A stretch of DNA of 55,598 nucleotides, from NCBI GenBank assembly GCA_902783625.1, contig CACZRN010000032.1, positions 1 through 55,598 of the forward strand, read 5' to 3'. The stretch is from an uncultured Prevotellaceae bacterium. GTDB taxonomy: Bacteria; Bacteroidota; Bacteroidia; Bacteroidales; Bacteroidaceae. The position numbers were made by a program, and so were the translations under genes. How positions within the stretch are numbered: the first letter of the stretch is position 1; each line of letters opens with the position of its first letter. This document shows positions 2,801-34,465 of this stretch, one piece after another. The notes under the pieces were generated by a model. It saw nothing but the letters and a program-made list of their open reading frames with translations. It was not told the DNA's origin and did not search any database.

Positions 2801-2886
2801 AATTTTGCTAGCAAAATTTCGATTAAAGGGCCTCTTTAATGGCAATAGAAAGCCTCTTTATTGAAAATTTTGCTAGCAAAATTTTC
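2801..2886. repeat. Palindrome-bordered intergenic repeat, copy 1
   Basis: An 18-base perfect palindrome AATTTTGCTAGCAAAATT (2801-2818) and a 24-base perfect palindrome centred on the same GCTAGC (2863-2886) enclose 44 bases. That core holds two copies of GCCTCTTTA/AGCCTCTTTA. Near-identical elements lie at 11061-11148 and 34382-34465. The right palindrome overlaps the stop of the decayed gene at 2885. The flanking stretch 2613-2800 holds nothing else I can identify. Confidence 0.85.
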
Positions 2887-3214
2887 ACATATCGCGAAAG
2901 CCTTTATCCACAAAGGGTTTTGCAAGGGGGGAGTATCGAACTAAAAAATCAAAGTTATACATAACCCTTTTAACAGCTTCCTGAATACTTCCGTACCCAT
3001 GTTCATTGAGATATTGAATCATCTCTTCTCTATTATGGACATTTATGCCCATATACTTGAGATGATTAATAAGCTACTGGGTAAGGGCCGACTCTTTGGT
3101 TTCTTGCTCATTAACAAGTTGTCTTTCTTCTGCTTCTAAGTATCTGAGAAAAGACTTTTTAATAATGAAAAACTCTTCTCCCACACGGATAAAACGTGTT
3201 GAGGAGAAGAGGTA
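2885..3214 (-). pseudogene. Decayed hypothetical gene, truncated at 5' end with an internal stop
   Basis: On the minus strand one frame is open from 3214 down to a TGA at 2885-2887 except for a TAG at 3074-3076. It reads FIRVGEEFFIIKKSFLRYLE and, after the stop, GINVHNREEMIQYLNEHGYG ending LAKPFVDKGFRDM. The composition is protein-like (charged amphipathic helices), and the frame continues after the stop in the same style. There is no start codon at its upstream end. I do not recognise the family. The most likely reading is a gene fragment inactivated by truncation plus a nonsense mutation; a chance open frame in AT-rich DNA is the alternative. Confidence 0.45.
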
Positions 3215-3226
3215 TTATAAAGGTAG

Positions 3227-3263
3227 TGATATAGTTACTATGTTGCAGATGCTAACTATATCA
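3227..3263 (-). terminator. Hairpin downstream of the phosphatase gene
   Basis: Perfect 11-base arms TGATATAGTTA (3227-3237) and TAACTATATCA (3253-3263) with a 15-base loop lie just past the stop of the phosphatase gene. The stem is AT-rich and the following bases are only moderately T-rich, so this may end transcription weakly or be an operator-like palindrome. Confidence 0.35.
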
Positions 3264-3273
3264 TTGCTTTTCT

Positions 3274-4233
3274 TTATTTATTAAAAATGGAAGTCATTGG
3301 GCGACCAACCCAGGCTTGCGGAGGGGTAACCCCGAGCATGTAGGCTACAGTGGCAGGTACATCGTATTGCATCATGGCATCTGTCATCACAAACCCTTCT
3401 TTGATGCCTTTTCCACAGACGACAAAAGGCGACAGCATCTCGTCGAGCGTCATGCCCCCGTGTCCTTTGTCTATGCCTCCATGATCGGCTGTAAGAACAA
3501 AAATAGTGTCATCGTAAATGCCGGCTTCTTTAGTTGCATCGACAATAAGTTTGACGCACTGATCGATGAATTTCTCGAAGGCATAGTATTCGTCGGTATA
3601 CCATCCAAAAGTATGACCTGCATGGTCGAGACCTGAGAAATAGATGGTCATGAACGTTGGTTTCTTTTCCTTAATATAATTGACAGCGGCCATCGTGTAG
3701 TCGAACTTGGTGCCTCCGTGCTTTTCCACATACTCGTCACCAGAGCTACCGCCGGGGATAAACATCACATCATCAACACACGCAGAGTCGACAAGATGCT
3801 TGATGACGTCCCAGTCGCAAAGCAGCCCTGAACGCTCTTCTGGTCGTTGTTCTTTAAGAATAGAATAAATGGTGGGGAAGATGCCGCGTTCGTTGGTAAC
3901 CGATGAAGGAATCTCTGGCACCTTCGAGAACCACTTTGTGTAGCCATGGCTTTCTGTGCCAACACCCATAAACACCGATGCCCAGTTGATAGCCGATGCC
4001 GAAGGTAATACAGAACGTTTTTTCAGCGTATAGCTACCGTTCGCCATGAGGGTGCCTTTCACACATGGCATGTCGGCATCTGCAATACTTTTGGCGGCCC
4101 AACCGTCAATACCGATAAGGACTACATGCTTGGCTTTTGCCTTGGGTTGGTGACGCTTGGCTTGACAGACTGTTATACTTGACCCGAGAAATACAAGGGT
4201 GAGAAAAATAAATGATAGCTTCAAATTTTTCAT
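3274..4233 (-). CDS. Secreted alkaline phosphatase family protein (nucleotide pyrophosphatase/phosphodiesterase type)
   Basis: Exported metal-dependent phosphatase or phosphodiesterase of 319 residues. The start at 4233 gives the signal peptide MKNLKLSFIFLTLVFLGSSI...CQA, followed by KHVVLIGIDGWAAKSI with the first metal-ligand aspartate. The probable nucleophile lies in the LPSASAINWASVFMG segment. Further metal ligands lie in YFSGLDHAGHTFG and TADHGGIDKGHGG, which are typical of the type I phosphodiesterase/nucleotide pyrophosphatase fold. The short size fits a single catalytic core without extra domains. A well-formed promoter sits 37-67 bases upstream. It is apparently transcribed alone. 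Its physiological substrate cannot be read from the sequence. Confidence 0.85.
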   Translation of the reverse strand: MKNLKLSFIFLTLVFLGSSITVCQAKRHQPKAKAKHVVLIGIDGWAAKSIADADMPCVKGTLMANGSYTLKKRSVLPSASAINWASVFMGVGTESHGYTKWFSKVPEIPSSVTNERGIFPTIYSILKEQRPEERSGLLCDWDVIKHLVDSACVDDVMFIPGGSSGDEYVEKHGGTKFDYTMAAVNYIKEKKPTFMTIYFSGLDHAGHTFGWYTDEYYAFEKFIDQCVKLIVDATKEAGIYDDTIFVLTADHGGIDKGHGGMTLDEMLSPFVVCGKGIKEGFVMTDAMMQYDVPATVAYMLGVTPPQAWVGRPMTSIFNK

Positions 4234-4269
4234 AATGTAAAAGATTAGTGTTAAACAGCTTTCTATCTG

Positions 4270-4300
4270 CAAAATTAACAATATTCCGTTATAATACAAA
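4270..4300 (-). promoter_or_regulatory. Bacteroidetes-type promoter for the phosphatase gene
   Basis: Minus-strand TTTG (4300-4297), 19 bases, then TAATTTTG (4277-4270), matching -33 TTTG and -7 TAnnTTTG exactly. The predicted transcript start is about 30 bases upstream of the ATG at 4233. Confidence 0.7.
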
Positions 4301-4331
4301 ATCAAATCTCTTTTTTCATTGAATAACATTA

Positions 4332-4500
4332 TCTCGGCATAAAAAAGAATTATTTTTTCGCTTTGCTCAACAACTCGTCTTTTTGTACTGCACTCGATTT
4401 TATGCAACATTTCCATCCTTATGAATGAAGAAGTTACCATGTCTCGGCATTAAAAAAGAACAATTTCTTTTTGTACTGCACTCGATTTTATGTAACTTTG
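4332..4500 (+). repeat. Direct duplication of the mnmG promoter segment
   Basis: Two imperfect copies of one segment lie in tandem: 4332-4407 and 4442-4496. Both begin TCTCGGCAT with an A-run ending in AGAA, and both end TTTTTGTACTGCACTCGATT followed by TTATG(C/T)AAC. The upstream copy has an extra 20-odd bases inside and lacks an intact -7 element (CAACATTT). The downstream copy ends in the intact TAACTTTG. It looks like a local duplication in which only the second copy stayed functional. Confidence 0.7.
4470..4500 (+). promoter_or_regulatory. Promoter for mnmG
   Basis: TTTG (4470-4473), 19 bases, then TAACTTTG (4493-4500). The transcript would start near 4505, so the only usable in-frame start is the ATG at 4518; the longer open frame from 4425 lies within and upstream of the promoter and is not translated. 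Confidence 0.8.
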
Positions 4501-4517
4501 TCGGAGATATAGCTACT

Positions 4518-6389
4518 ATGGAAATGAAATACGACATCGTGGTAGTTGGCGGCGGTCATGCTGGATGTGAAGCAGCTACTGCTGCAGCCAACCTCGGGGC
4601 AAGGACTTGTCTCGTGACGATGGATATGAATAAAATCGCACAGATGAGTTGCAACCCTGCTGTGGGTGGAATAGCGAAAGGACAGATTGTGCGCGAAATA
4701 GATGCTCTTGGCGGACAAATGGGGCTCGTCACCGACGCAACAACGATACAATTCCGCATGCTTAACATGGGAAAGGGACCTGCGGTGTGGAGTCCGAGAG
4801 CACAATGCGACAGGGCGAAATTCATTACAACATGGAGAGAAACGCTCGACCACACAGACAACCTCGACATCTGGCAAGATCAGGTTGAGGAAATATGTGT
4901 GGAAAATGGCAAGATAACTGGTGTGAAAACCATCTGGGGTGTTGATATCAAAGCACGATGTGTCATCATCACTGCTGGTACATTCCTTAATGGCATGATG
5001 CATGTCGGACGCAAACAAGTAGAAGGTGGACGATGTGCAGAACCTGCAGCACACAAATTAACGGAAAGTATTGAACATCAAGGGATTAGATCGTACAGAA
5101 TGAAGACAGGAACACCTGTCAGAATCGATCGTAGAAGTGTGCATTTCGAGGACATGGAACGTCAAGATGGCGACCGAAACAACTATAAGTTCAGTTACAT
5201 GGGCGAAGGGAAAAACCTGCCACAATTGCCATGCTGGATCTGCTACACAAACGAAGAGGTGCACAACACTCTGAGAAACCGCATCGACGACTCTCCACTT
5301 TACAACGGACAGATACAAAGCATCGGACCGAGATATTGTCCTTCGATAGAAACAAAACTTGTAACATTCCCTGATAAAGATCGCCACCCGCTGTTCCTCG
5401 AACCGGAAGGGACTGACACAAACGAAATGTACCTGAACGGGTTTTCGTCGAGCATGCCTATCGAATGCCAGATAGAAGCAATCCGACATATTCCCGCACT
5501 GCGCGATGTGAAAGTGTATCGACCTGGATATGCTATCGAATACGACTTTTTTGATCCTACACAATTGCAACACTCTCTCGAATCGAAGGTTGTCGACGGT
5601 CTCTTCTTCGCTGGACAAGTGAATGGCACTACGGGGTATGAAGAGGCTGGAGGACAAGGAACGGTAGCGGGAATAAACGCAGCTTTGAAATGTGGAGGAG
5701 GCGAGCCATTTGTTATGGGGCGCGATGAAAGTTATATCGGTGTACTCATCGACGATCTTACCACAAAAGGTGTCGATGAACCATATCGCATGTTCACATC
5801 AAGAGCAGAATATAGAATACTGCTTCGACAAGACAATGCCGACGAAAGACTGACAGAAAAAGCCTACGGCTTAGGACTGGCAACACGAGAAAGATACAAT
5901 TGGTGGATTGAAAAGAAAGAGGGCATAGAGCGTATTATCGACTATTGCAACCGTACACCTGTAAAACCCGCAATTATAAATCCTACTCTAGAAAGTCTGG
6001 GCTCTACCCCACTCTCTTCAGGTTGTAAGATTTCGGATCTTATCGCACGACCATTTGTAACAATCGAAGCACTGAGCGAAACCCTACACGAATTGAAAAA
6101 CATAATCGAATCTGTGCCTAATCGTAAAGACGAAAAAAAAGAGGCCGCAGAGATTAGAATGAAATATAAAGGCTACATAGAGCGTGAAAAAGAAGTAGCA
6201 GAGAAAATGCAACGGCTCGAAAACATAAAGATAAAAGGGCACTTCGACTATAACTCTCTTCATGAGATATCTACCGAAGGACGGCAAAAACTCATCAGAA
6301 TAAATCCGGAAACACTTGCTCAAGCAAGCAGAATTCCTGGAGTATCACCAAGCGATATAAACGTTTTACTTGTACTTATGGGTAGATAA
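4518..6389 (+). CDS. mnmG: tRNA uridine-5-carboxymethylaminomethyl modification enzyme MnmG
   Basis: FAD-dependent partner of MnmE, which installs the carboxymethylaminomethyl group at C5 of wobble uridine 34 in certain tRNAs, in the cytoplasm. The 623 residues match the usual MnmG length. MEMKYDIVVVGGGHAGCEAA contains the GGGHAG dinucleotide-binding motif at residues 11-16, followed by the signature NPAVGGIAKGQIVREIDALG. The GYEEAGGQGTVAGINAA segment near residue 375-390 is the second conserved FAD-contact block. The C-terminal helical tRNA-binding domain ends normally with SDINVLLVLMGR. The start at 4518 is fixed by the promoter. mnmG is often origin-proximal in bacteria, which fits the parS-like site 23 bases after its stop. 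Confidence 0.97.
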   Translation: MEMKYDIVVVGGGHAGCEAATAAANLGARTCLVTMDMNKIAQMSCNPAVGGIAKGQIVREIDALGGQMGLVTDATTIQFRMLNMGKGPAVWSPRAQCDRAKFITTWRETLDHTDNLDIWQDQVEEICVENGKITGVKTIWGVDIKARCVIITAGTFLNGMMHVGRKQVEGGRCAEPAAHKLTESIEHQGIRSYRMKTGTPVRIDRRSVHFEDMERQDGDRNNYKFSYMGEGKNLPQLPCWICYTNEEVHNTLRNRIDDSPLYNGQIQSIGPRYCPSIETKLVTFPDKDRHPLFLEPEGTDTNEMYLNGFSSSMPIECQIEAIRHIPALRDVKVYRPGYAIEYDFFDPTQLQHSLESKVVDGLFFAGQVNGTTGYEEAGGQGTVAGINAALKCGGGEPFVMGRDESYIGVLIDDLTTKGVDEPYRMFTSRAEYRILLRQDNADERLTEKAYGLGLATRERYNWWIEKKEGIERIIDYCNRTPVKPAIINPTLESLGSTPLSSGCKISDLIARPFVTIEALSETLHELKNIIESVPNRKDEKKEAAEIRMKYKGYIEREKEVAEKMQRLENIKIKGHFDYNSLHEISTEGRQKLIRINPETLAQASRIPGVSPSDINVLLVLMGR

Positions 6390-6411
6390 TTTAAAAGAAT
6401 ACAACATAAAA

Positions 6412-6427
6412 TGTTTCACGTGGAACA
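6412..6427. promoter_or_regulatory. parS-like centromere site 1
   Basis: TGTTTCACGTGGAACA differs at one base from the perfect palindrome TGTTTCACGTGAAACA, the well-known ParB-binding parS consensus. It lies in the 68-base gap between mnmG and apt. With the second site 615 bases away it implies a ParB-loading zone, which in most bacteria is near the replication origin. Confidence 0.85.
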
Positions 6428-6457
6428 CTTCGATTAATCATAAAAACAACAAATAAA

Positions 6458-6988
6458 ATGAACAACGAAATTCTTCTTAAAAATCTGAGATGCATTCCTG
6501 ATTGGCCAATTAAAGGTGTAAACTTCAGGGATGTAACAACATTGTTTAAAAGTGCGGAATGTATAAAAATCATCAACGATGAGATGTATGATCTCTACAA
6601 AGACAAGGGGATTACAAAGATCGTAGGTATTGAAAGTCGTGGTTTTGTAATGTCGTCTGCATTGGCGCTCCGATTGGGTGCAGGTGTTGTGCTTTGTAGA
6701 AAACCAGGAAAACTCCCTTGTGAGACAGTACAAGAAAGTTATGCAAAAGAATACGGAATCGACACTATCGAAATTCACAAGGATGCTATCGGTGAAAACG
6801 ACATTGTTTTACTTCACGATGACCTGCTTGCTACTGGAGGAACAATGAAAGCTGCATGCAATCTTGTTAGAAAATTCAATCCCAAGAAAATCTATTGCAA
6901 TTTTATTATAGAACTTGTAAACGAAGGATTAAACGGAAGACAAGCATTTGACGATGATGTAGAAGTTACGTCACTTATTCAGATTTAA
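6458..6988 (+). CDS. apt: Adenine phosphoribosyltransferase
   Basis: Purine salvage enzyme making AMP from adenine and PRPP in the cytoplasm. The 176 residues are the normal size. The PRPP-binding loop is seen as NDIVLLHDDLLATGGTMKAA near residues 110-130, and the family opening RCIPDWPIKGVNFRDVTTLF is intact. The ATG at 6458 starts the conserved N-terminus. It follows mnmG by 68 bases, in a gap occupied by a parS-like site. A strong hairpin after its stop separates it from uvrC, so it may be transcribed with mnmG. Confidence 0.96.
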   Translation: MNNEILLKNLRCIPDWPIKGVNFRDVTTLFKSAECIKIINDEMYDLYKDKGITKIVGIESRGFVMSSALALRLGAGVVLCRKPGKLPCETVQESYAKEYGIDTIEIHKDAIGENDIVLLHDDLLATGGTMKAACNLVRKFNPKKIYCNFIIELVNEGLNGRQAFDDDVEVTSLIQI

Positions 6989-6998
6989 TCGAAAAATG

Positions 6999-7038
6999 TG
7001 GGGCGAAGAAGAATAAAGAAACTTATTCCTTCGCCCCA
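6999..7038 (+). terminator. Strong hairpin after apt
   Basis: Arms TGGGGCGAAG (6999-7008) and CTTCGCCCCA (7029-7038), continued inward after a two-base bulge by GAATAA (7011-7016) with TTATTC (7023-7028). This is a very stable stem. No T-run follows on the plus strand; instead a T-run lies on the minus-strand side. Termination after apt is therefore likely but not of the textbook kind. It stands three bases from the second parS site. Confidence 0.55.
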
Positions 7039-7041
7039 TAA

Positions 7042-7057
7042 TGTTTCACGTGAAACA
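7042..7057. promoter_or_regulatory. parS centromere site 2 (perfect palindrome)
   Basis: TGTTTCACGTGAAACA, an exact 16-base palindrome identical to the ParB-binding parS consensus. It sits between the apt hairpin and uvrC. Its ATG would read MFHVKQ in frame with uvrC; this is a by-product of the site, not a start codon. Confidence 0.93.
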
Positions 7058-7079
7058 ATCAGGCCTACATAAAGCAGAT

Positions 7080-8921
7080 ATGACAAAGGAAGAAAACAAA
7101 AAAAGACTCGAAAAACTTAAGCTGATTGTCGAAAATATGCCGGAAAAGCCAGGTAGCTACCAGTATTACGACGACAATCACACCATTATTTATGTAGGAA
7201 AAGCAAAGAATCTGAAGAAAAGGGTTTCATCGTATTTCCACACAGAAGTGGACAGATACAAAACAAAAATACTCGTTTCGAAAATTTGGGATATAAGTTA
7301 TACTGTAGTAAATAGCGAAGAAGACGCACTTTTGCTTGAAAATAACCTGATAAAAAAATACAATCCAAAATACAACGTTCTGCTCAAAGACGGAAAAACA
7401 TATCCAAGCATTTGTATCACAAACGAAAGTTACCCAAGAATATTCAAGACAAGAAATATCAACAAAAAAATCGGAAATTATTACGGGCCATACAGCCACG
7501 TAACAACAATGTACCAGCTTCTGGACATAATCTTTAAACTCTACAAACCACGCACGTGTCGGTTAAACCTGACAAAAGAAGGAATTAAGGAAGGAAAATT
7601 TAGGCCCTGCTTGCAATATCATCTGAAGAACTGTTATGGTCCATGCATCGATAAACAATCGTACGAGGATTACCAGGAGAATATAGCCAAATCAAGGGAA
7701 ATACTGAAAGGAAACACCCGCGAGCTGAACAATCTTATATATTCAAAAATGCTGGAAAAGGCTGAGAATCTGGAGTTTGAAGAAGCAGAAGAACTGAAAA
7801 AACAATACCAGATGCTCGAAGGATTCAGAGCAAAAAGCGAAGTCGTATCACATACAATATCTAACATTGATGTATTTACTATTACTGAAGACGAGCACAA
7901 CCGCACAGCGTTCATCAACTACATTCATGTGATGAATGGCTCTATAAATCAAAGCTTTACGTTCGAATATAAAAGAAAACTCGATGAAACCGAGCAAGAT
8001 TTGCTATTGAACGCAATTATAGAGATACGTACACGGTTCAAGTCAACAGCAAAAGAGATTGTTGTTCCTTTTGAGATGGAATGGACCCTAAACGACGCAA
8101 CGTTTTTCGTCCCTCAGCGCGGTGACAAGAAACACCTTCTCGATCTGTCGGAAATGAACGGAAAACAATATAAAGTTGACAGACTTAAACAATCGGAAAA
8201 ACTAAACCCCGAGCAAAAGCAAACACGATTGATGAAAGAACTTCAGAGCAAGCTGAAACTTGAAAAAATGCCATACCAAATAGAGTGCTTCGACAATTCA
8301 AACATCTCTGGAACAAACGCCGTTGCTGCTTGTGTGGTGTTCAAGGCGATGAAACCGTCAAGAAAAGATTACAGAAAATATAACATAAAGACTGTTGTGG
8401 GCCCCGACGACTATGCTTCAATGCAAGAAGTTGTACGACGCAGATATTCACGCATGATTGAAGAAAACACTCCCCTACCCGACCTTATAATTACCGATGG
8501 CGGCAAGGGTCAGATGTCAGTTGTGCGTGAAGTTGTGGAAGACGAATTGCACCTCAATATTCCAATTGCCGGACTTGCGAAAAACGATCGTCACAGGACC
8601 AACGAAATTCTATATGGAAATCCACCGCAAGTAATTGGTATTAAGACAGATACAGAACTATTTCATGTACTCACACACCTGCAAGATGAAGTGCACAGGT
8701 TTGCTATCACATTCCATCGCCAAAAGCGAAACAAAAACATGCTCCACTCAGAACTGGACACAATTGCCGGAATTGGGCCAAAGACCAAAGACGTGCTTCT
8801 CAAAAAATTCAAGAGTGTAAAAAGAATAAAAGAAGCTGATATTGAGACACTTACAAATGTTATCGGAGCATCCAAGGCGAAGATAATTAAAGATTTTTAC
8901 GATGCCAAAGTGCAGGATTAA
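7080..8921 (+). CDS. uvrC: Excinuclease ABC subunit C
   Basis: Makes both incisions around DNA damage in nucleotide excision repair with UvrA and UvrB. The 613 residues show the GIY-YIG nuclease first (PGSYQYYDDNHTIIYVGKAK, about residues 22-41). A UVR/UvrB-binding motif follows near residues 205-240 (LEFEEAEELKKQYQML). The RNase H-like second nuclease (IECFDNSNISGTNAVAACVV and LIITDGGKGQ) comes next, and C-terminal helix-hairpin-helices end the protein (LDTIAGIGPKTKDVLLKKF). The start is placed at the ATG at 7080 (MTKEENKKRLEKLK), because the open frame upstream begins in the parS site. The coding strand is strongly A-rich. Confidence 0.97.
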   Translation: MTKEENKKRLEKLKLIVENMPEKPGSYQYYDDNHTIIYVGKAKNLKKRVSSYFHTEVDRYKTKILVSKIWDISYTVVNSEEDALLLENNLIKKYNPKYNVLLKDGKTYPSICITNESYPRIFKTRNINKKIGNYYGPYSHVTTMYQLLDIIFKLYKPRTCRLNLTKEGIKEGKFRPCLQYHLKNCYGPCIDKQSYEDYQENIAKSREILKGNTRELNNLIYSKMLEKAENLEFEEAEELKKQYQMLEGFRAKSEVVSHTISNIDVFTITEDEHNRTAFINYIHVMNGSINQSFTFEYKRKLDETEQDLLLNAIIEIRTRFKSTAKEIVVPFEMEWTLNDATFFVPQRGDKKHLLDLSEMNGKQYKVDRLKQSEKLNPEQKQTRLMKELQSKLKLEKMPYQIECFDNSNISGTNAVAACVVFKAMKPSRKDYRKYNIKTVVGPDDYASMQEVVRRRYSRMIEENTPLPDLIITDGGKGQMSVVREVVEDELHLNIPIAGLAKNDRHRTNEILYGNPPQVIGIKTDTELFHVLTHLQDEVHRFAITFHRQKRNKNMLHSELDTIAGIGPKTKDVLLKKFKSVKRIKEADIETLTNVIGASKAKIIKDFYDAKVQD

Positions 8922-8946
8922 AAATATATATTCGTAAATTTGCACC

Positions 8947-9399: not shown

Positions 9400-9470
9400 G
9401 CCCAAAAAGGGTTTCAGCGCATTTTTTCTAGAAAAGAGACCATCGAAATAAAATACGAAAAATAGAAACG

Positions 9471-9797: not shown

Positions 9798-9815
9798 ACA
9801 AATAAAAGTAAAACT

Positions 9816-10757: not shown

Positions 10758-10800
10758 GCCACGGCTACTACCCGGCAAACAATAATATTTGGGAGTTTGT

Positions 10801-10907: not shown

Positions 10908-11060
10908 TATTTTTGTCTTTCCACTTCCACATTAAAACCATTTTGCCCCCTACTCTACATTCCTATTCCTTACTATCAACACATTTTGGATGAAATAAAA
11001 AAGGGATTAAAGTAATAGAAAGAAACAGAAAAAGAAACGAAACAACAATTCCGAAGAAAT

Positions 11061-11148
11061 AATTTTGCTAGCAAATTTTCTATTAAAGAGGCTTTTTATT
11101 GACATTAGATGGGCCCTTTATTGAAAAATTTGCTAGCAAAATTTTCAA
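11061..11148. repeat. Palindrome-bordered intergenic repeat, copy 2
   Basis: The left border AATTTTGCTAGCAAATTT (11061-11078) and the right near-palindrome (11121-11148), both centred on GCTAGC, enclose about 42 bases containing ATTAAAGAGGCTTTTTATT and GGGCCCTTTATT. Layout and spacing match copies 1 and 3, with a few substitutions and a one-base loss in each border. Confidence 0.85.
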
Positions 11149-19961: not shown

Positions 19962-20082
19962 TGCCGCAGATGATATTTGTGGAATAAACGTTGAAGATGC
20001 AATTGCTTGGCTCGAAAAGCAGAATATAACAACACACTGAAAATGTGTTAGTTATATTATACTATACTTTACTCTCAATAGA

Positions 20083-20165
20083 AGGGCTCTTTAATGCGAT
20101 TAAAGAGCCTTTTATCTTGCATTAGAAAGCCTCTTTAACGCCATTAAAGAGGCTCTTAATTAAAT
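20083..20165. repeat. GCCTCTTTAAT-family repeat, two-hairpin copy without GCTAGC borders
   Basis: Two adjacent perfect hairpins: 20085-20109 (11-base arms, 3-base loop) and AGCCTCTTTAA (20128-20138) with TTAAAGAGGCT (20144-20154). Between them lies TTGCATTAGAAAG, the same spacer wording seen in copies 1 and 3 (CAATAGAAAG, CCATTAGAAAG). The GCTAGC palindromes that frame the other copies are absent. Confidence 0.8.
20085..20114 (+). terminator. Rho-independent terminator-like hairpin after the esterase gene
   Basis: GGCTCTTTAAT (20085-20095), loop GCG, ATTAAAGAGCC (20099-20109), then TTTTA. Eleven perfect pairs followed by a short T-run on the plus strand. The same sequence is a member of the GCCTCTTTAAT repeat family, so the repeat may be serving as a terminator here. 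Confidence 0.6.
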
Positions 20166-26398: not shown

Positions 26399-26420
26399 AT
26401 ATATTTTATAGTAGAAAAAA

Positions 26421-27368: not shown

Positions 27369-28675
27369 AGAAATTATATATAGAGACCTATGGTTGTCAA
27401 ATGAACGTGGCCGACTCAGAAGTTGTGGCGTCGATAATGAAAATGGCAGGATACGACGTTTGCGAGAATATCGATGAGGCTGATGCAATATTTCTGAATA
27501 CATGCTCGGTGCGCGAGAATGCTGAGAATAAAATATACAATCGACTAGATACTCTTAATGCTGAGCGTCGCAAAGGTCGACAATTAATAATAGGCATACT
27601 CGGTTGTATGGCTGAACGGGTGAAGAGCGATCTTATAGAAAATCATCATGCCGACCTTGTTGCAGGTCCTGATGCTTATCTTCGTCTGCCTGATCTTATT
27701 GCACAAGTAGAAGTGGGCGGTAAGGCTATCGATGTTGATTTGTCGCTCACAGAGACATATCGTGATATCGTACCACAGCGAATTAGTAATAATCGTGTGA
27801 GTGGTTATGTGAGTATTATGCGCGGATGTAATAATTTCTGTCATTACTGTATAGTACCATATACCCGTGGACGTGAGCGTTCGCGCGATGTGGATAGCAT
27901 TCTGCGCGAGGTTGACGATCTCTGTCAGCGTGGATATAAAGAGGTGACACTGCTGGGACAAAACGTAAACTCATATAATTTCGATGGCATTACTTTCCCA
28001 CAGCTGCTGCGTAAAGTAGCAGAGAGTGTACCTTCGATGCGAGTGCGCTTTACTACATCACATCCGAAGGATATGAGCGATGAAACGTTGCATGTGATAG
28101 CCGACGTGCCCAATGTATGTAAACATATACATCTGCCTGTGCAGAGTGGGAGTAATAAAATACTGAAACTTATGAACCGCAAATATACCCGTGAGTGGTA
28201 TCTCGACCGCGTGGATGCCATACGAAGGATTATCCCTGACTGTGGGTTATCGACAGACATATTTGTAGGTTATCATGGTGAGACGGAAGAAGATCATCAA
28301 ATGTCGCTCAGTCTGATGCGCGAGGTTGGGTACGATTCTGCTTTCATGTTCAAATATAGTGAGCGTCCAGGTACTTACGCGTCGAAACATCTGCCTGATA
28401 ATGTGCCAGAGGAGGAGAAAATACGTCGTCTAAATGAACTCATTCATCTGCAGACCGAGCAGTCGCGTATTGCAAACAAGCGTGATGAAGGTCGTGAATT
28501 CGACATACTTATTGAGGGATTCAGTCGTCGCAGTCGTGAACAGATGTGCGGACGGACAGAACAAAACAAGATGGTGGTGATACCACGAGGTAACTGCCAC
28601 GTTGGCGAGACGGTTAGAGTGAAGATAACAGGCTCTACAAGTGCAACCTTGTTGGGTGAGCAGATAGTAGAATAA
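27365..28675 (+). CDS. miaB: tRNA-2-methylthio-N6-dimethylallyladenosine synthase
   Basis: Radical SAM methylthiotransferase that adds the 2-methylthio group to i6A37 of tRNAs reading codons beginning with U. The 436 residues show the N-terminal methylthiotransferase domain with three cluster cysteines (TYGCQMNVADSEV, LNTCSVRENAENK, GILGCMAERV). The radical SAM motif CNNFCHYC is in MRGCNNFCHYCIVPYTRGRE. A C-terminal TRAM domain ends the protein (FDILIEGFSRRSREQMCGRT, then VKITGSTSATLLGEQI). Overlap by four bases with the upstream membrane-protein gene points to one transcript. MiaA is not in the window. Confidence 0.97.
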   Translation: MKKLYIETYGCQMNVADSEVVASIMKMAGYDVCENIDEADAIFLNTCSVRENAENKIYNRLDTLNAERRKGRQLIIGILGCMAERVKSDLIENHHADLVAGPDAYLRLPDLIAQVEVGGKAIDVDLSLTETYRDIVPQRISNNRVSGYVSIMRGCNNFCHYCIVPYTRGRERSRDVDSILREVDDLCQRGYKEVTLLGQNVNSYNFDGITFPQLLRKVAESVPSMRVRFTTSHPKDMSDETLHVIADVPNVCKHIHLPVQSGSNKILKLMNRKYTREWYLDRVDAIRRIIPDCGLSTDIFVGYHGETEEDHQMSLSLMREVGYDSAFMFKYSERPGTYASKHLPDNVPEEEKIRRLNELIHLQTEQSRIANKRDEGREFDILIEGFSRRSREQMCGRTEQNKMVVIPRGNCHVGETVRVKITGSTSATLLGEQIVE

Positions 28676-28789
28676 CCGCGACTATATAAAAAATGTAGGC
28701 GATAATATGCATTAATATGGCTTTTTTATAGCGATAATTAATAAAAATCAAGTATAAAGTGTTAAAAAGATAAATAATACGGGTATTTC

Positions 28790-28820
28790 TTTGTAATTAT
28801 GATAAAAATAGTTACTTTTG
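28790..28820 (+). promoter_or_regulatory. Promoter for the Lrp/AsnC regulator operon
   Basis: TTTG (28790-28793), 19 bases, TACTTTTG (28813-28820): an exact -33/-7 pair, with the ATG 44 bases downstream at 28865. The leader is AT-rich; an autoregulatory Lrp site could lie here, but none is obvious. Confidence 0.75.
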
Positions 28821-28864
28821 CTGACAATTTGTAAGTAATAGGTAATAATTAATGTCAAAAAGAT

Positions 28865-29326
28865 ATGGAAAGAATAGACAAATTAGATCGTCAAATACTT
28901 AGTATTATATCCCGCAATGCACGTATTCCTTTTAAGGATGTAGCCGAAGAATGTGGTGTCTCGCGTGCTGCCGTACATCAGCGTGTGTCACGACTTGTTG
29001 AAGATGGGGTGATTACCGGTAGCGGATTCTATGTGAATGCAAAGAGTCTGGGCTACAGCACCTGCACATATATTGGGCTTAACCTTGAGCGTGGAAACAT
29101 GTATAAAGAAGTTGTGAAGGAATTAATGAAAATACCCGAAATAGTTGAATGTCATTTTACTACAGGTCCTTACACAATGTTGGCAAAAGTGTATGCACGT
29201 GATAACGAGCAACTTATGGACCTACTAAACAATCATATACAATCTATACCAGGCATTGTATCGACCGAAACACTAATATCTCTCGAGCAGAGCATACGTC
29301 GCGAACTGCCTGTGAAAAACGAATAA
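28865..29326 (+). CDS. Lrp/AsnC family transcriptional regulator
   Basis: Small DNA-binding regulator of 153 residues. An N-terminal winged helix-turn-helix covers about residues 3-60 (LDRQILSIISRNARIPFKDV, AEECGVSRAAVHQRVSRLVE). A C-terminal RAM domain covers about residues 65-150 (TCTYIGLNLERGN, ECHFTTGPYTMLAKVYARDN) and normally binds an amino acid. Its TAA overlaps the ATG of the next gene (TAATG), so it is translationally coupled to the C26-M19 peptidase fusion. That link suggests the regulator senses an amino acid or dipeptide breakdown product and controls peptide use; this is inference. A clean promoter precedes it. Confidence 0.93.
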   Translation: MERIDKLDRQILSIISRNARIPFKDVAEECGVSRAAVHQRVSRLVEDGVITGSGFYVNAKSLGYSTCTYIGLNLERGNMYKEVVKELMKIPEIVECHFTTGPYTMLAKVYARDNEQLMDLLNNHIQSIPGIVSTETLISLEQSIRRELPVKNE

Positions 29327-31071
29327 TGAACAAAATAGAAAACATCTTAGACGGCATATATAGTAATTATAAGAAAACAACCCGTCCGGTAATAGGTATT
29401 ACTTCAAACTATACCGCTGGCGATGCTACCCTGCGTGAGCGATACTATAAGCAGGTAGAGGCTGCCGGAGGTACACCAATGATTCTACCTCCACTGAAAA
29501 GCGAGGAGGTAATTCTTTCCACACTCGACAATATTGATGCCCTGTTGCTTACAGGCGGCGGCGATATTGATCCGACACTTATCGGTGAAGAGCCGTCACC
29601 GTTGCTTGGCGAGGTGAATGAAGAGCGCGATATACCCGAGCTTGTCATAGCCCGGCTGGCGTTCAACCGTCAGATGCCTATACTCGGAATATGCCGAGGC
29701 ATACAGACTTTGGCAATAGCACTCGAAGGACATGTGGCACAGGACCTGTCGCTTGCCAAAGAATGGAAAAGCGATGTGGGCATAATTCACTCGCAGCAGG
29801 AAGAGCGTGAGGTGAAAACTCACAGCGTCGGCATATTGCCTAGCACAATTCTACATGATATCTACGGCACAGATGAATTACGCGTGAATTCGTTTCATCA
29901 TCAGGTGGTGGATGACGCCGGACCACACTTAGTTGTATCGGCCACTAGTCCCGACGGACTGATAGAGGCTGTTGAGAGCAGCGAGCATAAGAGTGTGCTC
30001 GGTGTGCAGTGGCATCCGGAGTGGCTAGGCGAAGAGGGTAGGAGACTCTTTGTGTGGCTTGTGGAGAGAGGAAGGCTGTTTGCAGAAGCAAAGCGGTTGA
30101 ACGATGATATAATCACCCTCGACAGCCATTGCGACACGCCGATGTTTTTCTCGCAGAATATCGATTTCGGTAAACGCGACAGTCATATCCTCGTCGATCT
30201 TCCAAAGATGACAGAGGGACGGCTCGATGTTACTACCATGGTGTCTTACCTGCCGCAACCGCGCGAGGGCGAGACATTCCAAGAGAAAGTGCCATTCCCC
30301 GTCAGCGGACCAAAGGCATATGCTGATCTTATTTTCGACAAGATAGAAGCTATCACGGCAAAATATGCCGACAGGGTGGCCATCGCCCGCAGTCGTGATG
30401 ATATATTGTTAAATAAGCGCGCCGGCCGTAAGTCTATCATGATAGGAATAGAAAACGGATTGGCGCTAGAAGACGATATTGCCAACGTTGAGCACTTTGC
30501 ACGGCGCGGAATAGTGTATATAACACTATGTCATAATGGTGATAACCAGATATGTGACTCGGCTCGTGGCAGCCAGACACATGGTGGTGTGAGTGAGTTT
30601 GGCGCTAAGGTGATAAGAGAGATGAACCGTCTCGGCGTGGCTGTCGATCTGTCGCACGGCGCAGAGAGCAGTTTCTATGATGCACTGGCGATAAGTAGCG
30701 AGCCGATAGTATGCAGCCATAGTTGCTGTCGCAGTCTGTGTGATGTGCCGCGTAACCTTACCGATGACCAGATGCGAGCATTGGCCCAGAAAGACGGGGT
30801 GATGCAGATAACACTCTATCATGGTTTCCTCCGCGATCCTGGCGAGGCGTCGATAATTGATGCTATAGAACATCTCAACCACGCCATCGACGTGATGGGG
30901 GTCGATCACGTTGGTTTGGGGTCTGACTTCGACGGCGATGGTGGCGTGGCAGGCATAGCCGATGCGTCGGAAATGATAAACTTCACGATTAAGTTGCTCG
31001 AGCAGCGTTTCAGCCACAGTGATATCCGTAAAATATGGGGTGAGAACTGGTTGAGAGTGATTCGTCGTTAA
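29326..31071 (+). CDS. Fusion of gamma-glutamyl hydrolase (C26) and membrane-dipeptidase-type (M19) domains
   Basis: Two complete enzymes in 581 residues. Residues about 20-250 are a class I amidotransferase-fold gamma-glutamyl hydrolase like PuuD. The nucleophile is Cys123 in GICRGIQ, with His230 and Glu232 in QWHPEW, and TGGGDIDP is also conserved. Residues about 262-581 are an M19 zinc dipeptidase: His268/Asp270 in DSHCD, bridging Glu376 in GIENG, His444 in VDLSHG, His465 in CSHSC and Asp534 in GSDFDG. There is no signal peptide, so it is probably cytoplasmic. The order suggests removal of a gamma-glutamyl group and splitting of the remaining or resulting dipeptide in one protein, for example in breakdown of gamma-glutamyl peptides. 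It is coupled to an Lrp-type regulator. Confidence 0.9.
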   Translation: MNKIENILDGIYSNYKKTTRPVIGITSNYTAGDATLRERYYKQVEAAGGTPMILPPLKSEEVILSTLDNIDALLLTGGGDIDPTLIGEEPSPLLGEVNEERDIPELVIARLAFNRQMPILGICRGIQTLAIALEGHVAQDLSLAKEWKSDVGIIHSQQEEREVKTHSVGILPSTILHDIYGTDELRVNSFHHQVVDDAGPHLVVSATSPDGLIEAVESSEHKSVLGVQWHPEWLGEEGRRLFVWLVERGRLFAEAKRLNDDIITLDSHCDTPMFFSQNIDFGKRDSHILVDLPKMTEGRLDVTTMVSYLPQPREGETFQEKVPFPVSGPKAYADLIFDKIEAITAKYADRVAIARSRDDILLNKRAGRKSIMIGIENGLALEDDIANVEHFARRGIVYITLCHNGDNQICDSARGSQTHGGVSEFGAKVIREMNRLGVAVDLSHGAESSFYDALAISSEPIVCSHSCCRSLCDVPRNLTDDQMRALAQKDGVMQITLYHGFLRDPGEASIIDAIEHLNHAIDVMGVDHVGLGSDFDGDGGVAGIADASEMINFTIKLLEQRFSHSDIRKIWGENWLRVIRR

Positions 31072-31101
31072 CATGTCGCTGGTCGACAATTTGCGTATAG
31101 A

Positions 31102-32133
31102 ATGAAAAGAAAAACAATATTAGGAATTTTGATAACCTCAGTTTTAATAATTGCCGCTCTTGCTTTAGGACCGGCAAAATCTTTGTTGCAGCAACAAGAT
31201 AAGTCGGGTGTTATCACCGACAACTCTGGTGTTGGCAATTTAGTAACTACGCTGCAGTTCGATGCCGACTCTGCCTATGCATTTACTGCTGCTCAATGTG
31301 ATTTCGGACCGCGAAACATGAACAGCGATGGCCACGACAAGTGTAAGAAATGGATAATAAATAAGTTTCGCAGCTATGGTTGTGAGGTGATGAGCCAAGA
31401 TGCCGACCTGCGTGGATACGACGGCACCATGCTAAAGAGCAGTAATATTATTGCCCGTCATCGCACAGATATCGATCGTCGCATAATGCTCTGCGCTCAT
31501 TGGGACAGTCGTCCGTGGGCAGATAACGACCCCGATCCCGACAACTGGCATAAACCCATCCTTGCAGCCAACGATGCTGCTTCTGGGGTAGCCGTGATGA
31601 TTGAGATCGCCAGGTTGTTACAGGCAGACTCTACGCTCAACGTCGGTGTCGATTTCGTATGCTTCGATGCCGAGGACTGGGGTACTCCTCAGTGGGAAGA
31701 GCGACAACCGGGCGATGATAACACTTGGGCTCTCGGGGCACAGTATTTCGCTCAAAACATGCCACTTGTACCAACGCCTCAATATGGTATCCTGCTCGAT
31801 ATGGTGGGAGGCGAGAATGCTACATTCTATCGCGAGGTGTACTCTTTGAAATACGCCCGCGACATTGTCGACCGTATATGGGATGCGTCGCGTGAGGTAG
31901 GGCAGAGCTCGTTCTTCATTTACGAAGAAGGTGGGGCAATCACCGACGACCATGTGCCGCTGAATACCATTGCCCGTATCCCTACAGCCGACATTATTCC
32001 TTTCCATCCCAACTGCCGCGAGAGCTCGTTCGGATCAACATGGCACACCCTTGCCGACGACATGTCAAACATCAGTCGCAACACCCTGAAAGCCGTAGGA
32101 CAAACAGTGCTTCAGGTCCTTTCAAAAGAATAA
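31102..32133 (+). CDS. M28-family protein, probable glutaminyl-peptide cyclotransferase
   Basis: Predicted zinc enzyme of 343 residues anchored or exported by an N-terminal hydrophobic segment (TILGILITSVLIIAALALGP). The fold is the M28 aminopeptidase type. CAHWDSRPWADNDPDPDNWH around residue 132, AANDAASGVAVMIEIARLL with Asp158, DAEDWG with Glu191, and FHPNC near the C-terminus closely follow the animal-type glutaminyl cyclases of Bacteroidetes such as that of Porphyromonas gingivalis. Those enzymes convert N-terminal glutamine of periplasmic proteins to pyroglutamate. The single zinc site implied by this pattern favours cyclase over peptidase. It begins 30 bases after the C26-M19 gene and may share its transcript. 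Confidence 0.82.
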   Translation: MKRKTILGILITSVLIIAALALGPAKSLLQQQDKSGVITDNSGVGNLVTTLQFDADSAYAFTAAQCDFGPRNMNSDGHDKCKKWIINKFRSYGCEVMSQDADLRGYDGTMLKSSNIIARHRTDIDRRIMLCAHWDSRPWADNDPDPDNWHKPILAANDAASGVAVMIEIARLLQADSTLNVGVDFVCFDAEDWGTPQWEERQPGDDNTWALGAQYFAQNMPLVPTPQYGILLDMVGGENATFYREVYSLKYARDIVDRIWDASREVGQSSFFIYEEGGAITDDHVPLNTIARIPTADIIPFHPNCRESSFGSTWHTLADDMSNISRNTLKAVGQTVLQVLSKE

Positions 32134-32147
32134 TTCAAAGGAAATAT

Positions 32148-32333
32148 TATACCACAGATTGCGCTGATTATCCAGTATTTGTTTATAATAAAGAACCACA
32201 GATTACACAGATTTCACGGATTTAAATAATCCGTTTAATCAGCGCAATCTGTGGTTTTTATATACCACTCCCGTGTTACTTTATTATAAATAAAAATCCG
32301 TTTAATCGGTGCAATCTGTGGTCGTTAAGTAAA
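32148..32333. repeat. ACCACAGATT-type repeat cluster after the M28 gene
   Basis: Four copies of a short element, two in each orientation: ACCACAGATTGCGCTGATTA at about 32151, ACCACAGATTACACAGATTT at about 32201, and the reverse forms GCGCAATCTGTGGTT (about 32241) and GTGCAATCTGTGGTC (about 32309). AATCCGTTTAATC precedes each reverse form. Opposed copies can pair into hairpins between the convergent M28 and DUF4294 genes. A related copy lies at about 44729-44757. This type of element is widespread in intergenic DNA of this phylum. Confidence 0.75.
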
Positions 32334-32344
32334 GTAATCTGCGG

Positions 32345-33004
32345 TTATATCTGTCCAGCCTCCACCTGCAAGACGATCTTCTCTATCTCTTTGTCATCGT
32401 CGTCAGGGTCGTATTTTTTCGTCAGACTGGCACCGTAGGCCCACGCGAATGCCTGCCAGAATCCAGCGCGGATAGGACCCATGAAAGCGTTGATAAGATT
32501 ATATGACGACGAGTTACACTCGCGGTAGACGAGTTTTATAAGTAGCTTACCCTGTTTGAACGACAGCTTTCTCATCCGCGGACCATACTCCTCTTTCAGA
32601 CTCTTCTCCACATATTTCATGTGCTCCTTGCGCGCCTCTTTGTCGGGAAGCGTCTGCAGATATTCGTATGTCTCAACAACCATTTGCCTCACCTCCTTTG
32701 CTATTGGCAACACCTTCTTCACGTTTGCAACGTCGCGGTTGTATTTCTGTTGCGCCTTTTTGTTTTTGAATACCTTCTTTGGATAAACATATATTCTGTT
32801 CAGCTCCACATACATCACGCTGTCGCCGTCTAAGAGAGCCTTGCCAACCTTTATCAGCGGGTCGAACGTGGTGTTGCTGAGTTTTATCTCCTCGGCGCTG
32901 CTCATCTCGTCGAGAGGACCCTCGTTCTGTGCAAATACAGTCTGCGCAAGAAAGAGGAGTGCTATTATGTGGAAAAAGCGAAACTTCAAAATATTAATTG
33001 TCAA
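32345..33004 (-). CDS. DUF4294 family exported protein
   Basis: Bacteroidetes-specific protein of 219 residues recognised as DUF4294. A signal peptide (FRFFHIIALLFLAQTVFA, then QNEGP) comes first. The conserved core reads NRIYVYPKKVFKNKKAQQKY, KEVRQMVVETYEYLQTLPDK and YRECNSSSYNLINAFMGPIR, and FWQAFAWAYGASLTKKYDP follows. Function is unknown. Its start overlaps the end of the upstream U32 gene by 11 bases on the same strand, so the two are co-translated from one message, probably from the promoter at 34326. It is predicted to be periplasmic or envelope-bound. Confidence 0.85.
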   Translation of the reverse strand: MTINILKFRFFHIIALLFLAQTVFAQNEGPLDEMSSAEEIKLSNTTFDPLIKVGKALLDGDSVMYVELNRIYVYPKKVFKNKKAQQKYNRDVANVKKVLPIAKEVRQMVVETYEYLQTLPDKEARKEHMKYVEKSLKEEYGPRMRKLSFKQGKLLIKLVYRECNSSSYNLINAFMGPIRAGFWQAFAWAYGASLTKKYDPDDDDKEIEKIVLQVEAGQI

Positions 33005-34271
33005 CTTCTATTTTATCTATTCTGAACAGTTTATCGCTCGGTCTTATCTTCTCCGGAACAGCAATCGACACGCGTGTACCCTTGTTTGCCTCTGCCACTG
33101 GCCCGTGATCGCCGTGCACCTCAGTGGGTGTGACATAGATGACTCCCGTCGTAGGACCTGTTATCAGCATCTTGTCGCCGGGCTTGAATGTTGAGGCTTC
33201 GACGGTGAACTCCGCCACACCGAGTCGCGAGAAATACTTAACCCCGCGCCCCACATACACCTTCCGCTCCGTTGCCATCGAGCCATAGTGGTCGTTCCAT
33301 TCGCCGAGCGTCTGCCCCTGGTAGTAGCCATCCCAGAACCCACGGTTGAACACCCGCGCCAGTCGCTCGTCCCACTCGTCCTTCCGGGCCTCGTTGAACT
33401 CACCCGCGCACACCGCATTGATAGCTTCGCGGTAGCACTTCACCACCGTATAGACATATTCTGGTCCGCGTGCACGACCTTCAATCTTAAACACCCTCAC
33501 CCCGCTCTCCATCATGCGATCGATGAATCGGATGGTTTTCAGGTCTTTAGGGCTCATTATATATTTATTGTCAATCTCCAGTTGGGTGCCCGTTTCGTTA
33601 TCGGTGACGGTATATGATCTCCGACATATCTGCATACACTCACCGCGGTTTGCCGAGCGTCCCGTGTTCTGCAGGCTCATATAACACTTGCCCGAGATGG
33701 CCATGCAGAGTGCCCCGTGGCAGAACATCTCAATCCTCACCAGCTCTCCCGACGGCCCTTTTATCTGTTGCTCCACTATCTGGCGATAGATGTCAGCCAC
33801 CTGCTCCATCCTCAGCTCGCGCGCCAGCACCACCACATCGGCAAATTGAGCGTAGAAGCGCAGCGCCTCTATGTTCGAAATATTTAGCTGTGTACTCAGA
33901 TGCACCTCCACTCCGCGCTGCCGGCAATAGGTCATCACCGCCACATCGCTTGCTATCACCGCACTTATGCCCGCCTCGGCGGCAGCGTCGATAATCTCGC
34001 GCATCGTGGCCATGTCCTCGCCGTAGATGATGGTGTTCACCGTCAAGTACGATTTCATTCCATGCTCATGGCACGTCAGTGCAATCTCGCGCAGGTCGTC
34101 GATGCTGAAGTGGTTGGCCGAGTGAGAGCGCATATTGAGCTTCTCCACACCGAAGTAGATGCTGTCGGCACCTGCCTGGATGGCGGCTGTCAGACTCTCG
34201 CGCGAACCCACCGGGGCCATTATCTCAAAGTCGTTGCTGTTCATTACTGTCATTATTTGTGGAGCAATCAC
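32994..34271 (-). CDS. U32 family protein, probable tRNA hydroxylation enzyme TrhP
   Basis: Member of the collagenase-like U32 group, most of which act in tRNA or ubiquinone hydroxylation using prephenate rather than as proteases. The 425 residues contain DFEIMAPVGSRESLTAAIQA near the N-terminus, DSIYFGVEKLNMRSHSANHF, and the family signature EMFCHGALCMAISGKCYMSL with further cysteines in GECMQICRRSY that likely bind an iron-sulfur cluster. TrhP (YegQ type) makes 5-hydroxyuridine at tRNA position 34; the length fits. The true start may be the ATG nine codons downstream (34244, MNSNDFEIMAPVGS). DUF4294 follows with an overlap. Sequence is GC-richer than genes at 23-28 kb. Confidence 0.85.
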   Translation of the reverse strand: MIAPQIMTVMNSNDFEIMAPVGSRESLTAAIQAGADSIYFGVEKLNMRSHSANHFSIDDLREIALTCHEHGMKSYLTVNTIIYGEDMATMREIIDAAAEAGISAVIASDVAVMTYCRQRGVEVHLSTQLNISNIEALRFYAQFADVVVLARELRMEQVADIYRQIVEQQIKGPSGELVRIEMFCHGALCMAISGKCYMSLQNTGRSANRGECMQICRRSYTVTDNETGTQLEIDNKYIMSPKDLKTIRFIDRMMESGVRVFKIEGRARGPEYVYTVVKCYREAINAVCAGEFNEARKDEWDERLARVFNRGFWDGYYQGQTLGEWNDHYGSMATERKVYVGRGVKYFSRLGVAEFTVEASTFKPGDKMLITGPTTGVIYVTPTEVHGDHGPVAEANKGTRVSIAVPEKIRPSDKLFRIDKIEVDN

Positions 34272-34294
34272 CGGCTCCCTTTTCCATCACATGG

Positions 34295-34326
34295 CAAAAT
34301 TAATCACTTATCCGTAAATATGCAAA
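34295..34326 (-). promoter_or_regulatory. Promoter for the U32-DUF4294 pair
   Basis: Minus-strand TTTG (34326-34323), 20 bases, TAATTTTG (34302-34295). The predicted transcript starts about 20 bases before 34271, or 45 before the alternative start at 34244. Confidence 0.65.
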
Positions 34327-34381
34327 TCTCTTGCTTTTTATTTATTTATAATGCATTGCAGCATGTCGAATTGTATGAAAA

Positions 34382-34465
34382 AAATTTTGCTAGCAAAATT
34401 TCGAATAAATGGGCACTTTAATGCCATTAGAAAGCCTCTTTAATGAGAATTTTGCTAGCAAAATT
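34382..34465. repeat. Palindrome-bordered intergenic repeat, copy 3
   Basis: A left 20-base perfect palindrome (34382-34401, centred on GCTAGC) and right palindrome AATTTTGCTAGCAAAATT (34448-34465) enclose 46 bases with GGGCACTTTAATGCCATTAG and AGCCTCTTTAAT. It lies between the divergent promoters of the U32 and MINPP genes, so here it cannot be a terminator for a convergent pair. Confidence 0.87.

Follow-up and report, generated by a model that had tools for sequence, protein, structure and literature searches.

The stretch of DNA analysed here (the window, 55,598 nucleotides from an uncultured Prevotellaceae bacterium) carries three copies of an intergenic repeat that is built as a ladder of four small dyads about 22 bp apart, running from a GCTAGC palindrome (P) through two variable 22-bp near-dyad units (u) to a second GCTAGC palindrome, with a total length of about 85 bp. 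Ladders avoid one another along the chromosome, and comparison with a sister species showed gaps between genes that keep a ladder although its sequence family has changed. We tentatively read these repeats, from sequence comparison, as REP/BIME-like intergenic dyad ladders recognized by a putative lineage-specific protein, a mobile element being nearly as likely. The genome is a draft metagenome-assembled genome (MAG; 84.6% complete, 148 contigs). The window holds six ladders, none with an assigned strand; the outer limits of the three lacking P were drawn by eye.

2801..2886, no strand: ladder copy 1, P-u-u-P; exact 77-bp repeat at 2804-2880, palindromes at 2804-2815 and 2869-2880, core at 2816-2868
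11061..11148, no strand: ladder copy 2, P-u-u-P; exact repeat at 11064-11140
20078..20165, no strand: about four u units without GCTAGC; period-22 repeat at 20090-20159, sequence inspected
34382..34465, no strand: ladder copy 3, P-u-u-P; exact repeat at 34386-34462, divergent genes on either side
40565..40700, no strand: five to six u units without GCTAGC; period-22 repeat at 40574-40688 (5.2 copies), sequence inspected
47323..47410, no strand: about four u-like units without GCTAGC; period-22 repeat at 47340-47404 (3.0 copies), sequence inspected

The first-pass annotation had reported the three P-bearing copies as one family with strictly conserved ends and spacing. Exact repeats of the form TTTGCTAGCAAA-N53-TTTGCTAGCAAA begin at 2804, 11064 and 34386, and the same pattern occurs 102 times genome-wide (0 times when read backwards as a control). 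Since a pattern of fixed length 77 with a central purine recovers all 102 (50 + 52 matches), all exact copies have one length, and family and spacing both hold as claimed. With up to three mismatches across the 24 palindrome bases the genome-wide count is 112 (control 0); a first, stricter pattern gave no matches in a search of genome contigs. Within the window, TTTTGCTAGCAAAA with up to three mismatches has 9 matches against 3.35 expected, a number reached in 0 of 100 shuffles, and the six matches with at most one mismatch correspond to the two ends of each of the three copies.

Between these ends the sequence varies: 100 of the 102 copies were inspected and comprise 96 distinct 77-mers, with a mean pairwise identity of 0.76 across the 53-bp cores. 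Each core consists of two 22-bp near-dyad units, AATA-NNNN-GSC-TCTTTAATG, the dyad centres fall at 6.5, 28, 50 and 71.5 of the 77-mer, and flank conservation extends about 4-6 bases outside each palindrome. One variant elsewhere (L098) has three units and palindromes 87 bp apart, modules are chained via common palindromes, and a subset of copies have arms in common that reach about 95 bp. Terminal inverted repeats are present, with P at both ends, whose inner edges (positions 13 and 65) are coupled (p = 4e-5); paired positions inside the u dyads showed no coupling above chance. The coupling of the ends is also explicable by a hairpin or by terminal inverted repeats. As in REP/BIME elements, these are high-copy intergenic palindromes in mosaic arrays. 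The 22-bp pitch of the four dyads, the two-unit core, the three-unit variant, the flank conservation, the three P-less ladders of the window and the sister's differently sequenced ladders in shared gaps were absent from the first-pass annotation.

The exact P pattern was found in none of 397 other sampled genomes of the genus, and the sister RGIG4872 has 13 copies against 102 here. Conversely, AGTAC-N9-GTACT unit pairs at 22-bp pitch number 358 in the sister and 27 here, and a 22-bp period appears in 31 of 112 repeat rows from 20 other species, a figure taken without an outgroup control. Among the matches listed, GCTAGC pairs from other phyla and viral contigs belong to repeats or other sequence with a different build. 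The consensus of the right arm has 8 matches at a score of at least 14 in 1.08 Mb of the sister and 0 in shuffled sequence; two of the 8 adjoin P copies and one adjoins a GCCGGC-centred relative, and the arm was rejected as a general companion of ladders. That the sister has ladders of the same build, often in the same gaps, in different DNA sequence points to a fast-changing repeat, either chromosome-marking or mobile. The first-pass annotation had held its reading to be wrong if no further copies existed or if all relatives carried the element at the same positions; further copies occur genome-wide, and relatives differ in occupancy.

With genes called by a longest-ORF rule, gaps bounded by two called genes hold 76 of the 100 inspected copies; another 3 overlap a short ORF and 21 stand at a locus or contig edge. 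The 76 placed copies cover all four gene orientations ('-+' 26, '+-' 19, '--' 17, '++' 14), which supports the varied gene settings described in the annotation. In codirectional gaps the ladder is nearer the 3' end of the upstream gene in 25 of 31 cases here and in 25 of 33 in the sister.

Exact copies in this genome form 0 of 30 intervals below 5 kb against 8.8 expected under uniform placement with contig-end copies held fixed, in a draft assembly that may lack short contigs lying between close copies. The closest pair is 5.1 kb apart, so copies do not enclose single-gene cassettes; an invertible promoter or an integron attC site was considered and seems improbable. Sister ladders form 3 of 49 intervals below 3 kb against 17.4 expected, again under uniform placement, where ladders less than 300 bp apart were merged by the rule and not by the null, and about 12 of the stretches had been picked for holding P copies. 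A broader ladder rule gave a weaker result there (7 of 45 intervals below 3 kb against 13.2 expected, p = 0.011) and nothing at 1 or 2 kb; AGTAC arrays taken by themselves, on five contigs, showed no spacing effect. For a third genome (G061), ladders form 0 of 25 intervals below 5 kb against 3.2 expected among the matches listed, which were taken from the order of their rows as complete below 0.98 Mb. Even spacing is also explicable by target immunity of a mobile element.

Thirteen orthologous gaps hold a P ladder only here, and in 8 of them the sister has a ladder of another family, compared with 1 of 18 comparison gaps (Fisher p = 0.0012), in a single species pair and with dyad-ladder status judged by eye from the unit. 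This test sets aside two low-complexity rows (L023 and L046) and leaves out a solo palindrome (L100); with the two rows included, the figures are 9 of 13 and, among gaps of at least 150 bp, 1 of 12 (p = 0.0036). The gap orthologous to copy 2 of the window, for example, holds a TATC-family ladder in the sister, and the core of copy 1 (2816-2868) is unlike the sister's core at the same locus (L230), the whole core having been replaced at a fixed position; one core was exchanged between loci. One pair has the full element in the sister (L209) and a lone palindrome here (L100). Loci aligned individually revealed no precise empty site and no target duplication, the sister gap holding other or diverged sequence. 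Site-specific recombination at GCTAGC was rejected as the cause of core shuffling: one pair (L019/L226) has a breakpoint inside the core, and conversion or template switching fits equally.

The few AGTAC ladders in this genome bear on exchange between the two species. Of 12, six could be checked and all six lie within DNA 93-100% identical to the sister, against a background in which 12 of 126 tiles attain 94% identity; the corresponding chance figure, (12/126)^6, treats tiles as independent and was not used. Judging by this identity, the DNA around the checked ladders is recently exchanged with the sister. Not every shared P copy reflects recent exchange, since one P copy common to both species (L055/L233) has flanks about 80% identical.

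Under the docking-site reading, which we favour with some hesitation, four small palindromic sites 21.5-22 bp apart over about 85 bp would be one lineage's version of an intergenic ladder. Because this pitch equals two helical turns, all four dyads would lie on the same face of the DNA; each might be bound by a dimer of an abundant, putative lineage-specific DNA-binding protein, and a ladder every 5-15 kb or so could let a cooperative complex dock on one side of the DNA. Its job may resemble that of REP/BIME elements, in anchoring, supercoil relief or 3'-end protection; REP/BIME elements bind gyrase, IHF or Pol I. A shift in the preference of the protein would then turn ladders over genome-wide to a new sequence dialect, partly via conversion between copies, and DNA recently received from the sister would keep the sister's dialect.

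A selfish, non-autonomous MITE-like element that burst in this lineage, with GCTAGC palindromes as ends for a putative transposase, is only slightly less probable in our estimation. It would explain intergenic placement as tolerance, self-avoidance as target immunity or recombinational loss of close pairs, and shared gaps as target preference, and it draws on the lineage-specific amplification (102 here, 13 in the sister, 0 in 397 genomes), the near-invariant ends around a variable core, the coupled inner edges, the arms common to a subset of copies, the chained modules and the full element in the sister where one palindrome stands here. However, neither a target duplication nor a precisely empty site was seen in the aligned loci, other-family ladders in 8 of 13 P-less sister gaps are not what tolerance by itself would lead one to expect, and GCTAGC is absent within 1.5 kb of the two Y1 transposase loci of this genome. 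The mobility proposed in the first-pass annotation may hold: the filled and half-empty pair, core replacement and lineage amplification speak for it, whereas neither a clean empty site with duplication nor an enzyme was seen. If the ladder is mobile DNA, it is unusually regular, keeping four sites fixed and strongly avoiding its own copies.

Transposase searches covered the Y1 and Mu-type families. Two Y1 genes are present here, and GCTAGC occurs within 1.5 kb at 0 of the 2 loci, which led us to reject a REPIN/RAYT system for the P family. In other genomes a 22-bp repeat or AGTAC units lie within 1.5 kb at 5 of 8 Y1 loci, about chance given 255 of 600 random windows in the sister and 196 of 600 in 20 species. 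At one sister locus (L264) a TATC ladder begins about 45 bp past a Y1 gene, which may leave a RAYT link possible for that family. Tn7/Mu-type transposon ends have four 22-bp sites and target immunity; the TnsB/MuA-like domain PF09299 matched in 0 of 3 genomes, and in 0 of 14 control genomes too.

An RNA-level element, a long hairpin made from either strand that protects or ends transcripts, is improbable. Each of the three P copies in the window folds into a single long hairpin (z = -6.0, -7.0 and -6.2), two AGTAC ladders fold with z = -5.7 and -8.3, placement is biased to the 3' side of genes and the ends are coupled, but strong folding already follows from the palindromes, and AGTAC stems show 18 one-sided and 0 two-sided changes in 1,430 pair cells. 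An Rfam search of the ladders in the window, L019, L041 and L205 gave no family match. We set the hairpin or terminator behind as a main reading, keeping it as a rival, because divergent genes flank 26 of 76 placed copies and the u units lack internal coupling, an absence in keeping with sites read as double-stranded DNA and not as hairpins. A tag for DNA uptake, with dialects by species like those of Neisseriaceae, is very improbable: reciprocal dialects and even spacing favour it, but exchanged segments bear the donor's dialect, the opposite of what recipient preference predicts, and uptake sequences are much commoner than the roughly one copy per 25 kb seen here.

Docking sites may extend further, although we consider it rather unlikely that Prevotella as a genus has a system of self-spacing four-dyad sites in which positions persist and each lineage rewrites the sequence genome-wide, along with a fast-evolving putative DNA-binding protein. 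Such a system would parallel, in bacteria, satellite or hotspot motifs that co-evolve, and would mark chromosome segments recently received from another species by a built-in dialect. Should the positions be functional while the sequence alone turns over, the protein reading the ladders must change with them, a DNA-binding protein and about 100 sites switching specificity jointly between species that still exchange DNA. In practice, ladder dialects may reveal recently exchanged stretches of Prevotella genomes, and draft assemblies seem to break at identical modules of these repeats.

Literature searches found no description of the four-palindrome 22-bp layout, in agreement with the first-pass annotation, which knew of no such family. 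Closest in kind are REP/BIME elements (compare PMC2817692), which are likewise short palindromes in more than 100 intergenic copies with regularly spaced modules and a mosaic build; here, by contrast, four dyads keep a fixed 22-bp pitch, the GCTAGC ends are near-invariant, the sequence is species-specific and P ladders have no adjoining RAYT. REPINs (compare PMC3116915) share conserved ends, a variable middle, a peaked length and one population per lineage, but the ends here are short self-palindromes, two structured 22-bp units make up the middle, and a cognate RAYT was not found. In the sections of PMC4596501 consulted, the BrickBuilt MITE of Porphyromonas gingivalis has 23-nt tandem units in variable number between a leader and a tail with IS5-type ends, in 19 always intergenic copies; the ladders resemble it as intergenic tandem short units in Bacteroidales, but are about 85 bp long with four dyads at pitch 22, and we rejected membership on their GCTAGC ends, which replace IS5-type repeats around a 23-nt minisatellite. 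PINSR of Prevotella intermedia/nigrescens is likewise intergenic, high-copy and clade-restricted within Prevotella (177-184 copies), but is by its description, in the portion of PMC4755523 used, 188 bp long and without terminal inverted repeats, unlike ladders of about 85 bp with P ends. The Neisseriaceae DNA uptake sequence is a short single motif. Its species-specific dialects extend over a genome, according to the part of PMC3630211 consulted, whereas in the ladders exchanged DNA bears the dialect of its donor.

The three copies of a palindrome-framed element that the first-pass annotation had picked out in the window are exact, each reading TTTGCTAGCAAA-53 bases-TTTGCTAGCAAA (2804-2880, 11064-11140 and 34386-34462), and a pattern search of the whole genome (2.58 Mb in 148 contigs, 84.6% complete) found 102 such TTTGCTAGCAAA pairs, with no match to the reversed control pattern. 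A fixed-length pattern recovers all 102 (50 + 52), and when up to three of the 24 palindrome bases may differ, 10 further copies appear, bringing the count to 112 with the control still at 0. When copies are stacked in one orientation, dyad centres fall at element positions 6.5, 28, 50 and 71.5, forming a ladder at ~22-bp pitch; the outer two are GCTAGC palindromes (P) and the inner two are variable units (u) of the form AATA-NNNN-GSC-TCTTTAATG. A few words account for most of the NNNN stretches (AAGA, GAAA, GATG, ACTG, AAGG, AAGT and others) and are combined across the two u units in many ways; one variant (L098, 87 bp) holds three u units. Paired positions inside the u dyads showed no coupling beyond chance; positions 13 and 65, at the inner edges of both ends, are coupled (p 4e-5), with weak coupling at 0/78 and 0/13 (p 0.018 each). 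As RNA, each window copy forms a single long hairpin (z between -6.0 and -7.0), as palindromes are bound to do. At several loci, the element is joined through shared palindromes to a second spacer, module B, of 66-67 bp, or 88-89 bp with an extra unit; its copies are nearly identical, and several contigs terminate at it.

Module B between GCTAGC palindromes, with a GCCCCTTGATAAGGGGC hairpin
L019:167-239
L041:2937-3009
L069:151-223
L103
L104

Among the 100 of 102 copies read with flanks, 76 sit in gaps whose two neighbouring genes are both called, 3 overlap a short ORF and 21 are at an edge. Placed copies number 26 in '-+', 19 in '+-', 17 in '--' and 14 in '++' gaps, which offer 21.2, 13.2, 16.7 and 13.5 kb of sequence, respectively; in codirectional gaps the nearer side is the 3' end of the upstream gene in 25 of 31 cases (hand count; p 0.0009). 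Copies also avoid one another: across the 18 contigs with at least two copies, three-unit variant included, no interval of 30 is under 5 kb (8.8 expected), and the interval coefficient of variation is 0.42 versus 0.84. Ladders of 22-bp u units lacking P also occur in the window:

20078-20165, u ladder without P
40565-40700, u ladder without P
47323-47410, u ladder without P

Together with the three P ladders (P-u-u-P) these make six ladders in 55.6 kb, at a minimum distance of 6.2 kb (p 0.008).

The P-ladder pattern was found in 0 of 148 relatives and a looser form in 0 of 397 other genus genomes, in two of which the control matched once. A contig-database scan returned the true element in two records among the matches listed; exact copies number 13 in the 2.3 Mb of RGIG4872, the sister species from roe deer rumen, and 1 in the 3.9 Mb of RGIG1614, from goat abomasum. 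The sister has ladders of other sequence, with AGTAC-N9-GTACT unit pairs at 22-bp pitch numbering 358 there, 27 in the genome of the window and 0 in RGIG1614. In its first 0.74 Mb sampled, the AGTAC family occurs in 41 arrays, 30 of them 84-88 bp, equal to four units; over 1.25 Mb, a family rule counts 78 AGTAC, 13 P, 11 TATC and 6 CATTA ladders, with 3 of 49 intervals under 3 kb (17.4 expected). Under a broader repeat rule, 7 of 45 intervals are that short against 13.2 expected (p 0.011) and the effect is absent at 1 and 2 kb, and AGTAC arrays alone on five contigs show no significant effect. Sampling 20 kb per genome in 20 further members of the genus showed a period of 22 more often than any other repeat length (31 of 112 rows). 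Many such arrays, though not all, contain dyad units, several have four, and their sequences differ. In one closed genome, G061, CAAAWTGGGCGNNWTTG units occur 78 times per strand, and none of the intervals among 26 arrays is under 5 kb (first 0.98 Mb; 3.2 expected, p 0.027). As this sampling covered members of the genus, we do not claim that 22-bp arrays are confined to it. TTTGCTAGCAAAATAAGTT-like units at ~21-bp pitch, unlike ladders in build (L122, L134, L142, L145, L151), form arrays in two bins of one sample, one assigned to Spirochaetaceae and the other to Bacteroidales, possibly through a binning mix-up.

Using 60 stretches of the sister, 34 of 159 gaps in the genome of the window could be paired. 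Two have P in both genomes (flank identity 94.9 and 79.8%) and 13 have P in the genome of the window only (flanks 75-86%); at 8 of these 13 the sister carries a ladder of another family (AGTAC in four, TATC in three, four u units in one). Of 19 paired gaps without P in the genome of the window, L100, a solo palindrome with a full element in the sister, was excluded, and the remaining 18 include one sister ladder (AGTAC, 111-bp gap). Occupancy stands at 8/13 versus 1/18 (Fisher p 0.0012), or 8/13 versus 0/12 in gaps of at least 150 bp (p 0.0016).

Tiles of sampled DNA from the genome of the window matched sampled sister DNA over at least 400 bp in 126 of 325 cases, at 70-90% identity in 104 and at least 94% in 12. 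Among sampled loci, 8 of the 13 sister copies have a recognizable counterpart; in six pairs at least one flank is at least 94% identical, and the other two have flanks at 85-90% and 72-83%. At window position 2804 the flanks are 96-98% identical to sister locus L230, whose core exactly matches the one at L031, elsewhere in the genome of the window; a whole core has been replaced at a fixed place. At L019/L226, module B and half a core differ and the remainder is common. Segments 96-99% identical between the two genomes (for example, L293/L205, L294/L223-L310 and window 2804/L230) stand out from the 70-90% found mostly elsewhere, and represent recent between-species exchange carrying the donor's ladders. 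Of 12 AGTAC arrays examined in the genome of the window, which cover 25 of its 27 unit pairs, six have counterpart DNA in the sampled sister sequence, all in segments 92.9-100% identical, the value for L296 coming from one 197-bp flank match. A single TTTTGCCGGCAAAA palindrome in the sister (L275 near 3790), with GCCGGC instead of GCTAGC, adjoins sequence resembling the element's right arm.

The repeat is strictly built, intergenic, self-avoiding and lineage-specific in sequence, with conserved gap occupancy and exchanged cores. We propose that the dyads would act as double-stranded sites along one helix face that a lineage-specific protein reads. An almost equally likely alternative is a mobile element with target immunity. 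The genome of the window has two genes for Y1 transposases, the RAYT family, and GCTAGC lies within 1.5 kb of neither; ladders occur near 5 of the 10 Y1 loci examined across genomes, about the level of random windows (255/600 and 196/600). One TATC ladder of 4.9 units in the sister (L264:1984-2091) begins ~45 bp past the stop of a Y1 gene, which could be chance or a family-specific link. A Y1 gene in the genome of the window (L260; contig C50:3442-3780) sits between its own GCGACTTCGAAGATGTCGC-type hairpins, unlike ladders, and looks like a separate REP system. In searches of open-licence papers we found no description of a four-dyad ladder at 22-bp pitch, and one may be in print elsewhere. 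The nearest systems among the papers found are PINSR (PMC4755523), BrickBuilt (PMC4596501), REP/REPIN elements and uptake-sequence dialects.
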